Shown: in pieces, positions 43,634-64,000 of the stretch
Layout of the letters: each line of letters starts with the position of its first letter
Numbering within the stretch: the first letter of the stretch is position 1
Source: Paraburkholderia ginsengiterrae
Lineage (GTDB): Bacteria; Pseudomonadota; Gammaproteobacteria; Burkholderiales; Burkholderiaceae
NCBI RefSeq assembly: GCF_001645125.1
Contig: NZ_LXKA01000110.1
Span: 434,001-498,000, forward strand
DNA length: 64,000 nucleotides
Direction: 5' to 3'
Position numbers and translations under genes: made by a program
Notes under the pieces: model-generated
Database searches by the model: none
What the model was told of the DNA's origin: nothing
What the model saw: the letters and a program-made list of their open reading frames with translations, nothing else

Positions 43634-43659
43634 GTCTGTCGACTGCGACAGTAAGAGTC

Positions 43660-59678: not shown

Positions 59679-61496
59679 ATGTGTGGCATTGTCGGCGCGG
59701 TAGCGCAACGTAATATCGTTTCCGTCCTGGTTGAAGGACTGCGTCGCCTCGAATATCGCGGCTACGATTCGTGCGGCGTGGCCGTGCTCGGCGACGCCGG
59801 CCCGCGCCGCGCCCGCACTGTGGCGCGCGTGGCCGATCTCGACGATCAGGTGCGCGAGAACCATCTCGACGGCATCACGGGCATCGCGCACACCCGTTGG
59901 GCAACGCACGGCGCGCCGGTGACGGACAACGCGCACCCGATTTTCTCGAAAGATGAACTCGCGTTGGTACACAACGGCATCATCGAGAATTACGAAACAC
60001 TGCGTGAAATGCTGCGTGGCAAGGGTTACGTCTTCGTCTCGCAAACCGACACAGAGGTTATCGCGCACCTGATTCACAGCCTGTATCGCGGCGACCTGTT
60101 CGCCGCGGTGCGCGAAGCCGTCGGGCAGTTGCACGGCGCGTACGCGATCGCCGTGTTGCACAAGGACCAGCCGCATACGGTGGTCGGCGCCCGGCAGGGT
60201 TCGCCGCTGGTGGTCGGCCTCGGCGACGGCGAAAACTTCCTCGCTTCAGACGCGCTCGCGCTTGCGGGCAGCACCGAGCGGTTCATCTTCCTCGAAGAAG
60301 GCGACGTTTGCGAGTTGTCGCTCGGCGGCGTGCGTATCGCCGATCGCGCCGGCAACGAAGCACAGCGCGAAGTGCGCCACGTGGCGGCGTATGGCGGCGC
60401 GGTCGAACTTGGCCCGTATCGTCACTTCATGCAAAAGGAAATTTTCGAGCAGCCGCGCGCGATCACCGACACGATTCCGCCTACGGATTCACTCGACGCG
60501 TCGCTGTTCGGCGAGGGCGCGGACAAGGCCTTCGCGGAGATCGACAGCCTGCTGATTCTGGCGTGCGGCACGAGCTACTACTCGGGGTTGACCGCGAAGT
60601 ACTGGCTCGAATCGATCGCGAAGATTCCGACTCAGGTGGAAATTGCCAGCGAGTACCGGTACCGCGAGTCGGTGCCGAATCCGAAGTCGCTGGTGGTCGT
60701 GATCTCGCAGTCGGGCGAAACCGCGGACACGCTCGCAGCGCTCAAGCATGCGCAGTCGCTTGGGCACAAACATACGCTGTCGGTGTGCAACGTCGGCACC
60801 AGCGCGATGGTGCGCCAAACGGAGTTGTCGTTCCTCACGCACGCCGGCCGCGAAATCGGTGTGGCCTCGACCAAGGCGTTCACCACGCAACTCGTCGCGC
60901 TGTTCGTGCTGGCGGCGACGCTGGCCAAGCTGCGCGGGCAGTTGAGCGAGGAGCAGGAAGCCGGCTATCTGAAGCAGCTGCGTCACTTGCCGGCGGCGCT
61001 GAATAGCGTGCTGGCGCTGGAGCCGCAGATCATCGCGTGGTCGGAAGAGTTTTCGCGCAAGGAACATGCACTGTTCCTCGGGCGCGGCCTGCACTACCCG
61101 ATCGCACTCGAAGGCGCGCTGAAGCTCAAGGAGATTTCCTATATTCATGCCGAGGCCTACCCGGCTGGCGAACTGAAGCACGGGCCGCTCGCGCTCGTGA
61201 CCGAAGCGATGCCGGTGGTGACAGTGGCGCCGAACGACGCGCTGCTGGAAAAGCTGAAGTCGAATATTCAGGAAGTGCGCGCGCGCGGCGGTCAGCTGTA
61301 TGTGTTCGCCGACGCGGATACGAAGATCGTCAATGACGAGGGCTTGCACGTGATCCGGATGCCGGAGCACTACGGCCTGCTGTCGCCGATCCTGCACGTG
61401 GTGCCGCTGCAGTTGCTGGCGTATCACACGGCGTGCGCGCGTGGCACGGATGTGGACAAGCCGCGCAATCTGGCGAAGTCGGTGACGGTGGAGTAA
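59679..61496 (+). CDS. glmS: glutamine-fructose-6-phosphate aminotransferase (isomerizing)
   Basis: Makes glucosamine-6-phosphate from fructose-6-phosphate and glutamine. 605 residues. Nucleophile Cys2 (MCGIVGAV) of the glutaminase domain, two SIS domains ([17 protein letters not shown]), and the C-terminal KSVTVE ending. Starts 48 bases after glmU. Confidence 0.97.
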
Positions 61497-61804: not shown

Positions 61805-62215
61805 CTAACGCGGTGACAACTGCAATAAGAGCCACTCCACCGCCCCCGCCGGATAATCCTCCGGCCACCCCCTTGTCAGCAAATCCACTGCTCCCCGCAC
61901 GCGCATCCGCATCCGCAGCGCCCCCTCGTCGTCGCTCGCGCCCACGCGTTCGACCTTCATTGTTTCCAGCACCGATTGCACGCAAGCCACCCGGTCCGTC
62001 GCCCGGCGCTGCCGCACGAAACTGGCATCAGAAATCCCCGCGTCTCGTGCCGCAACTTCGATGTCGGTGAGGGTATCTGCCAGCAGAATAGATAACAGTT
62101 CAACGGCTTCGCGTCCAATATAAGTGAGCGCTAACTCACCTTGGCGTGGTGGCAGGTCGAGGGGCGGGGAATTCATTGCCAGTGAAGCAATGCCGTTTAA
62201 ATGCTCATGTCGCAC
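61805..62215 (-). CDS. hypothetical protein, complete member of a locally repeated family
   Basis: Up to 136 residues, soluble, no recognised domain. The middle (GREAVELLSILLADTLTDIE ... SDASFVRQRRATDRVACVQS) looks helical and the C-terminus reads LTRGWPEDYPAGAVEWLLLQ. A related but damaged copy lies at 63200-63679 and a fragment at 63836-63885, all in the same orientation. Start either GTG 62215 or ATG 62176; neither has a clear ribosome binding site. Function unknown. Confidence 0.6.
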   Translation of the reverse strand: MRHEHLNGIASLAMNSPPLDLPPRQGELALTYIGREAVELLSILLADTLTDIEVAARDAGISDASFVRQRRATDRVACVQSVLETMKVERVGASDDEGALRMRMRVRGAVDLLTRGWPEDYPAGAVEWLLLQLSPR

Positions 62216-62331: not shown

Positions 62332-62598
62332 CTATCGCAAAGAATTTCTTGCAGCAGTCAGCCGGCGCTCAAGCTCCGAAAGGACGTCGTCCGCACTGAA
62401 ATATTCGTTGTCGCGACCTGCCTGCTTCGCTGAAGCGAGACCTCTCGAGATAAATCCATTTTGGACGCGGCGGCGCGCAATGCCCTCGCGCAGCGCCGAA
62501 TCCATGAATTCAGGGAGCGATTCGTTTTTGCGGAGCACACCTTCGGCTGCCATCCGAAGTTCCGGGTCGACACGAAGGGTCAGGATGGTCGTCGTCAT
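62332..62598 (-). CDS. YlcI/YnfO-like ribbon-helix-helix antitoxin-type protein
   Basis: 88 residues. N-terminal TTTILTLRVDPELRMAAE fits the strand and first helix of a ribbon-helix-helix DNA-binding domain. FMDSALREGIARRRVQNGFI follows, then a C-terminal segment (YFSADDVLSELERRL) of the kind that wraps a toxin. No RelE/ParE-type toxin follows: only about 115 bases separate it from the next gene. A solitary or relic antitoxin. GTG at 62613 is an alternative start. Confidence 0.7.
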   Translation of the reverse strand: MTTTILTLRVDPELRMAAEGVLRKNESLPEFMDSALREGIARRRVQNGFISRGLASAKQAGRDNEYFSADDVLSELERRLTAARNSLR

Positions 62599-62745
62599 GG
62601 GTCGCCGCCTCACAAATTACGTCGAAGACATTTTGGCCGCAACACTAAGCACTTGCAACGCTCCCGCTCGCGCGGGGCTTGCCACACCTGCAAGTCTGGA
62701 TTCGGCAACGAATGCTATGTAATATCGCGTGTAATACAAACGTAA

Positions 62746-63171
62746 GTGCAGCATGCACAGATAGAGAAATCGGGGGTGAGTTTGAGTGAACTAGACGAAT
62801 TTTACGGTGAGGCAGTCAGGCAGTTCGAAAGCGGTGAGCGACGCGACGACATCTGGGGAAAAGCGTTCTCGCAATGCAAGGGGGACGTGCAGGCGACCAA
62901 TGGGGTCTACGTCAAGTTGCTCGCGTTACAGCTAGCACGCGAGGCGAATGTGTATATTCCGGCCAAGGGTCTCGCGCTGGCCGGAAAGATAGCGGTAACC
63001 GTTCTAGGGCCACTACTTTTCGCTATCCTTATTAGTTTAATTTTGCGTTCAGATGGGGCCTTCGTCGGGGCGCTCGCGCTCGGTGCGTTCCTCGCTTTCT
63101 ATCTGCTCTGGTCGAAAGAGTCGCCGCTGCGCAAGAAGCCCATCACCGTGGAGCAGACTAGCGCTCCCTGA
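62746..63171 (+). CDS. hypothetical small membrane protein
   Basis: Up to 141 residues. A soluble acidic helical N-terminal half (LSELDEFYGEAVRQFESGER), then two closely spaced transmembrane helices (about 80-100 and 105-122), then a short basic/charged tail. Start GTG at 62746, or GTG at 62776 (VSLSELDEF); ribosome binding sites are weak. No family recognised. Low-GC context suggests recent acquisition. Confidence 0.55.
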   Translation: MQHAQIEKSGVSLSELDEFYGEAVRQFESGERRDDIWGKAFSQCKGDVQATNGVYVKLLALQLAREANVYIPAKGLALAGKIAVTVLGPLLFAILISLILRSDGAFVGALALGAFLAFYLLWSKESPLRKKPITVEQTSAP

Positions 63172-63199: not shown

Positions 63200-63679
63200 T
63201 CAGCCCACGCAACCCAGCGTTGACCCCCTGGGCCAGAGGCTAACCGGCAACTTGGCCCAGCAGGGGGGGCGTTCGTGCTGCCAGGGGTAATTTTTAGGGA
63301 TGGTCGCCCCCGAAAAGCGGACGTCACATCTCGTCGTCCGCTGCGGTTCCGGCACAAGCCACTCCACCGCCCCGGTCGGGTACTCGTCCGGCCACCGCCT
63401 TGCCAGCAACTCCACAGCTTCCCGCGTGGCCGCAGAGATTGCTCTCGATGAATCTCTGGTGTTGCCCTCGACCAAAGACGGCGTCGCACTGCACGCTGCG
63501 CTGCCGGCAATTTCCCTCACTGTTTCCAGTAGCCTTTGCGCGCAAGCAACCCGGCCGCGTGCTCGCCGCAGCCGAAGAAAGCTGGCGTCCGATAGCCTCA
63601 ATTTGCGTGCCAGGACGCTGATATCACTTTGTGCATCGCCCAAAATGAAGCAGAGCAGTTCAATAGAGGCTTGCTGGCA
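63200..63679 (-). pseudogene. damaged copy of the 61805-62215 gene
   Basis: Aligns with the complete copy: SDASFLRLRRARGRVACAQRLLET against SDASFVRQRRATDRVACVQS, and ARRWPDEYPTGAVEWL against TRGWPEDYPAGAVEWL. Upstream homology continues (ASIELLCFILGDAQ) to a stop at 63680-63682, so the N-terminus is missing. At the other end the original stop is lost and the frame runs on into unrelated sequence containing a GC-rich hairpin. A 147-residue product from TTG 63643 is possible but unlikely to be intact. Confidence 0.6.
63224..63267. repeat. GC-rich imperfect hairpin
   Basis: CCCCCTGGGCCA (63224-63235) pairs with TGGCCCA..GGGGG (63253-63267) except for a two-base bulge. Could be a remnant of a mobile element end or an intergenic repeat; not identified. 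Confidence 0.45.
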
Positions 63680-64000
63680 TCAGGGCATGTCTCCGATGCT
63701 GCGGCAGATACCCTAGAGTTTTCGATTGAGCGTTCCATGCGGAATGTAGTCGCCCCATTTATATAGGCTCGTCGTCCATCAGGGAACAGAACTGATTCCA
63801 AAGTGTCGGCTGCTGTAGCGGGTTTGTCCCGTCTCCCGTACGCGCCTCCGCATCCACGGCGCCCGCTCGTCGTCGCTCGCGCCCATCCTCCATCCACCGT
63901 CTGCAGCACTTTGAGCGCAATTTAATCGTCGCCAAAGTGGCATAAGGCTTTGATACTGTATATATATACAGTATCGGCAGCGCTTGTCAGCGACCGGCAA
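63680..64000. other. gene-poor right edge with gene fragment and SOS box
   Basis: No intact gene seen. 63836-63885 is about 90% identical to 61895-61945 inside the complete gene copy, a third fragment of that family. The LexA box is at 63954-63973. The next gene probably begins just beyond the window. Confidence 0.55.
63954..63973. promoter_or_regulatory. LexA (SOS) box
   Basis: TACTGTATATATATACAGTA, which equals the idealised E. coli LexA consensus; the symmetry extends two more bases on each side (63952-63975). Betaproteobacterial LexA uses the same CTGT-N8-ACAG site. With only decayed sequence to its left, the controlled gene is most likely on the plus strand beyond base 64000. Confidence 0.9.

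Follow-up and report, generated by a model that had tools for sequence, protein, structure and literature searches.

We tentatively read the 24-bp perfect palindrome near the right edge of the analysed DNA, a 64,000-nucleotide window of Paraburkholderia ginsengiterrae (C1:434001-498000), as a genuine LexA operator that belongs to an hth-ietAS defence/toxin-antitoxin module and not to a repair gene, and that would couple the module to the SOS response; our confidence in this reading falls just short of an even balance. Reading was continued past the window edge to the end of the contig. Positions there are given on L005, whose numbering is the window position minus 56000, the site being L005:7952-7975 (Table 1).

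Table 1. Features on either side of the LexA-type palindrome, in window positions unless L005 is indicated.
Feature	Position	Strand	Evidence or remark
glmS	59679-61496		TIGR01135
Open copy of small orphan protein family, downstream of glmS	61805-62215	-	136 aa; no LexA box upstream
YlcI/YnfO-family gene	62332-62613		NCBIfam NF041551, 1.8e-8
ORF without assigned family	62746-63171
Second, decayed copy of small orphan protein family	63353-63661	-	tblastn 33-46% identity, E down to 3e-20; blastn pieces
Small-gene paralogue fragment	63835-63885	-	90% identical over 51 bases to the 61805-62215 copy
Possible small-gene leader remnant (weak)	63930-63951	-	TGGCATAA at 63938 common to three relatives with the gene
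24-bp perfect palindrome with LexA (SOS) box	63952-63975	.	0-1 mismatches in ten relatives
XRE-type HTH gene hth, 3' end (stop and last codons)	63987-64000	-	Pfam HTH_3 2.4e-5
ietA	L005:8356-9366	+	336 aa, open; PADLOC IetA 1.1e-70; Pfam AAA
ietS	L005:9450-11999	+	849 aa, open; PADLOC IetS 1.4e-39; full-length Peptidase_S8 match
DUF6602/NucC-like gene	L005:12054-12860		beyond window
PD-T7-1	L005:12947-14062		beyond window
GajA N-terminal fragment	L005:14112-14552		beyond window
ORF without assigned family	L005:14454-15131	-
Diverged PycC	L005:15283-16056	-
PycC	L005:16069-16755	-
PycTIR	L005:16759-17670	-

The sequence GATACTGTATATATATACAGTATC equals its own reverse complement and encloses, at 63954-63973, the 20-base LexA (SOS) box TACTGTATATATATACAGTA, which we take to be the ideal E. 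coli LexA box. The sequence-only reading, which had described an ideal box within a perfect 24-bp palindrome, was right on this point. The box is present in one exact copy in the whole genome (8,533,041 bases), the number of exact copies expected from base composition being about 1e-7 (single-base model, window GC 64%). Nine sites genome-wide, this one included, lie within 3 mismatches of the 20-mer, and none does so for a reversed control pattern. The looser pattern CTGT-N8-ACAG is matched twice in the window against 0.39 expected from shuffles, the second match, at 43636, being devoid of an AT-rich core. Among the other boxes of the genome, one with 3 mismatches stands at the start of the host's own lexA gene (L017; LexA_DNA_bind, Peptidase_S24) and two are found in front of imuA genes (L010 and L014; NCBIfam ImuA 5e-63 and 9.5e-68), which indicates that LexA recognizes this motif in the present genome. 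One more adjoins a uracil-DNA-glycosylase-superfamily gene (L015) and another lies 165 bp from a DUF5131 gene (L016), while no convincing target was seen for the boxes of L011-L013, all within 3 mismatches. In most beta- and gamma-proteobacteria, according to PMC3323433, the LexA box is CTGT-N8-ACAG. The window site resembles the beta-proteobacterial operators covered there in sequence, palindromic form, AT-rich core and, in this genome, presence of the motif at lexA and imuA. What sets it apart is its place, at the 3' end of a regulator gene next to a defence operon and with 381 bp to the nearest start of a rightward gene, together with flanks that lengthen the palindrome.

The gene next to the box on the right, hth, occupies L005:7987-8256 on the minus strand (start codon picked by conservation), runs to C1:498256, 256 bp beyond the window edge, and turns its stop codon to the palindrome at a distance of 11 bp. 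It is divergent from ietA, which with ietS forms the adjacent pair of AAA-ATPase (IetA) and subtilase (IetS) genes by which an ietAS system is recognized. The sequence-only reading had expected the box to drive a gene immediately beyond position 64000, with an ORF beginning within about 100 bases; instead, hth points its 3' end at the box, and the first rightward-reading gene, ietA, starts 381 bp away. A gene start within 300 bases on either side, which the same reading expected, exists only as that of hth, 281 bp away and reading toward the site. Its mention of a mobile-element function is supported in that the neighbors are of a kind often found on mobile DNA, namely a defence island. Judged from sequence, the guess at a target is mostly wrong, and the box itself real and very strong. 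In relatives, the gene that starts near the box lies on its leftward side, where the window holds remnants only.

By its predicted gene content, the region to the right of the box is a defence island. Beyond ietS, the segment L005:12054-17670 is dense in defence genes and includes a Pycsar system with two PycC-like genes, one of them diverged. Inspection by eye of the ORF lists around the locus showed no integrase, and the possibility of a tRNA-borne island was rejected, ARAGORN having found no tRNA in about 26.5 kb. Between hth and ietA, a palindrome with a TATAAT core, TGCTATAATAGCA, is found in 13 of 14 loci, including four loci that have no LexA box, and it is the likely operator of the HTH protein in the hth-ietA divergent promoter region.

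In ten relatives, which belong to three genera, the box is likewise associated with hth. A 222-base query spanning the site gave matches in 27 of 98 genus genomes (own included) and long ones in 6 of the 97 others, and all six of these relatives carry the box beside the 3' end of hth. Searches with hth (399 family genomes, 13 matches, own included) and with IetA (143 genus genomes, 17 matches at 1e-40, own included) added four loci with a box: Caballeronia sordidicola (G325), G239, P. podalyriae (G120) and P. domus (G109). They also yielded four loci, C. arvi (G454), G418, G334 and G287, where hth and ietA are present but both the box and the small gene described below are missing from that place. 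Loci in which the box comes shortly after the hth stop thus number 11, namely the present one, those four and P. mimosarum (G023), P. xenovorans LB400 (G089), G093, G082, G084 and G037; the contig of G082 ends inside hth, so that no ietA is visible there. In the ten relatives, 19-20 of the 20 bases are kept, and the genes on the other side of the box differ. Farther away, nine more distant IetA loci (L127-L135) showed no hth match and no box in their 1.5-kb flanks. A scan of named genomes gave eight IetA loci, and those of Noviherbaspirillum soli (L149) and Bordetella genomosp. 13 (L150), scored for the box only, are without it. Four weak hth matches with no nearby ietA (L115-L118) were left out, and two more genus-wide hth searches (2/58 and 1/65 matches) returned loci known already.

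Comparison of these loci indicates that the box is under selection. Its mean identity is 19.44/20 over 45 pairs of 10 loci, whereas third codon positions of hth agree at 48% on average, and at 30-47% between the present locus, G325, G239 and G120/G109. The third positions have thus drifted while the box stayed; had the box merely drifted since a common ancestor, it would have been lost. Most deep branches of the IetA tree are without resolution, so that the tree gives no number of gains or losses of the box or the small gene.

How LexA might act on the module can be outlined as follows. LexA would bind the box, and damage to DNA, phage replication being one of its causes, would free the box of LexA, while the HTH protein would repress ietAS through the TGCTATAATAGCA palindrome. 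In relatives with the small orphan gene, LexA release would switch that gene on, and its product is guessed to antagonize the HTH repressor. In the present genome, where the small gene is lost, the kept box would most likely act on hth-ietAS itself, either by a transcript that SOS releases and that crosses hth in antisense to reach ietA, or by relief of a roadblock that LexA forms where hth ends; in both cases, SOS would lower hth and raise ietAS. The more specific proposal, in which LexA would govern ietAS from the far end of hth through a damage-fired promoter directed against hth into ietA-ietS, so that SOS triggered by phage or damage arms the system, and with the small protein of the relatives as an antirepressor, is possible, and we hold it to be rather unlikely. 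Promoter scores around the box do not rise above those of shuffled flanks in either direction, at 4.5-7.1 rightward and 4.9-8.3 leftward with 95% of shuffles scoring below 8.4; known SOS promoters score 7.1-10.4 in this test, which therefore has little power.

The ietAS system also goes by the name SgiAT. Systems of this type, found on pTiC58 and SGI1, are described in PMC5006074 as an AAA-ATPase antitoxin with a subtilisin-like protease toxin. The present module, predicted from its genes, shares with them the tandem of IetA and IetS homologues and differs in also having a LexA box, a palindrome that resembles an operator and an XRE-type gene in divergent orientation; neither 'LexA' nor 'repress' occurs in the main text of that paper. 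In PMC10732053, ietAS is named among the systems activated by phage replication proteins. No description of an ietAS-LexA link was found in the open-access literature searched, a scope outside which most subscription-journal papers fall; in the one paper there that contains both terms, ietAS appears only in a list and LexA in relation to another system.

The switching-on of defence systems able to kill their own cell is an open question. CapH/CapP is a DNA-damage-responsive repressor of defence operons. CapK/CapS is presented in PMC13373217 as a DNA-damage-responsive repressor of a defence operon, and the present arrangement resembles it, with an immune operon flanked by a small regulator gene and a possible link to DNA damage. 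Here, in contrast, the link would be LexA itself; 'LexA' and 'SOS' are absent from the main text of PMC13373217. Conservation of a LexA box together with ietAS would connect such a system directly to the SOS response.

The alternative that survives best, possible and on the whole doubtful, is that the box serves the small orphan gene only and that, this gene being truncated here, the box is a leftover with no target that owes its perfect state to recent inheritance. In six relatives, a small gene of up to 135 codons that reads away from hth starts 59 bp left of the 20-base box, a spacing measured directly in five and, in the sixth (L071), by way of the initial 15 residues, which lie in another frame. 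The gene is broken in two of the six, its frame being disrupted in L071 and stopped early, after 91 codons, in L072; in P. mimosarum it is open. The box is present in all six loci with the small gene and in 4/8 hth-ietA relatives that do not have it, and the two thus tend to occur together; that the other four of these eight lack the box favors the small gene as its target. The window itself holds paralogue fragments, in agreement with the decayed region to the left of the box that the sequence-only reading had reported, and perhaps a scrap of leader, in which 12-14 of 24 bases match relatives with the small gene, compared with 7-11 in four that lack it. The box is nevertheless found with no adjoining intact small gene in this window, where the gene is decayed, and in G325, G239, G120 and G109, and these four relatives keep it with 0-1 mismatches although hth third positions are near saturated between them. 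In G239, moreover, the neighbor is of the SMP-30/gluconolactonase family and converges on hth, its frame ending 38 bp from the box, which shows that a leftward SOS gene cannot account for every case.

The small orphan family as a whole is found in 32 of 145 genus genomes, many of the genus copies being fragments or stop-bearing. General SOS control of the family was rejected: the box is upstream in only six of 30 loci examined, and the other 24 have none within 450 bp upstream, their best sites carrying at least 7 mismatches. Copies are located downstream of glmS in the window and, in pieces, in C. sordidicola, and likewise, by eye, in C. arvi. The members scanned matched no family above cut-off in Pfam, NCBIfam or PHROGs, and sub-cut-off Pfam matches (E 0.002-0.06) and one PDB match (E 0.16) were all taken as chance. 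An AlphaFold model from a 3-row alignment is poor (mean pLDDT 52.9, pTM 0.32) and mostly helical.

It appears improbable that the palindrome is mainly an RNA stem-loop at the end of the hth message, acting as a terminator or stabilizer, with its likeness to a LexA site secondary. The flanks outside the box vary between species yet stay complementary: the 11 loci form 3-12 pairs outside the 16-mer, the palindrome of C. sordidicola measures 40 bp, and the predicted hairpins are strong (z -4.2 to -6.9, 3 loci folded). Twenty-nine other boxes have 0-4 such pairs, a contrast with the ietAS boxes (p 3e-5, 9 vs 29 boxes) that fails if 14 longer-palindrome boxes, excluded from the test along with two repeats of ietAS loci and with G093 and G037 (flanks same as those of a listed locus), are kept, and that is tilted because the controls include boxes whose 2-3 mismatches in some cases disrupt the outermost base pairs of the 20-mer. 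These 14 genus boxes (L025-L028, L030-L032, L034-L038, L050, L056) have 12-16 pairs beyond the 16-mer, with covarying arms. A PA0069-family radical SAM gene, recognized by its signature, lies beside all ten that were looked at, and an Lrp/AsnC-type gene, likewise by signature, beside nine of the ten, one assignment of each kind having been checked by profile (L028). This radical SAM gene may be the splB that PMC3323433 counts among the LexA targets predicted for beta-proteobacteria. Extended palindromes thus surround LexA boxes away from hth-ietAS too, and the flank complementarity could stem from selection for a hairpin or from palindrome-perfecting mutation, both being possible. A hairpin by itself, furthermore, would give no reason for the core to stay fixed at the precise LexA consensus. 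An intrinsic terminator was rejected, as no T-run was seen by eye beside the hairpin in either direction, that of hth included; no described RNA family was found over 1.5 kb around the site.

That the site is instead the operator of another dimeric repressor, such as the HTH protein itself, is very unlikely: it does travel with hth, but the hth-ietA gap has its own, different conserved palindrome, also in the four loci where the box is absent, and the box matches the lexA and imuA sites in kind. Control of a repair or mutagenesis gene (imuA-imuB-dnaE2, lexA or recX), the targets first suggested for the box, is refuted by the sequence at this locus, since a scan of ten ORFs over the 10 kb past the edge turned up none of these, even though other near-perfect boxes do serve such genes, as at lexA and the two imuA genes of this genome and in G058 (L075), where the box serves an imuA-like ORF, with an ImpB/MucB-family gene and then one for DNA polymerase III alpha coming after it.

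Two minor observations concern the small orphan family. Like the 61805-62215 copy of the window, another member, at L140:1298-1759, is found downstream of glmS. In G084, a second LexA-like box, with 2 mismatches, lies on the far side of the small gene (L070:6691-6710).
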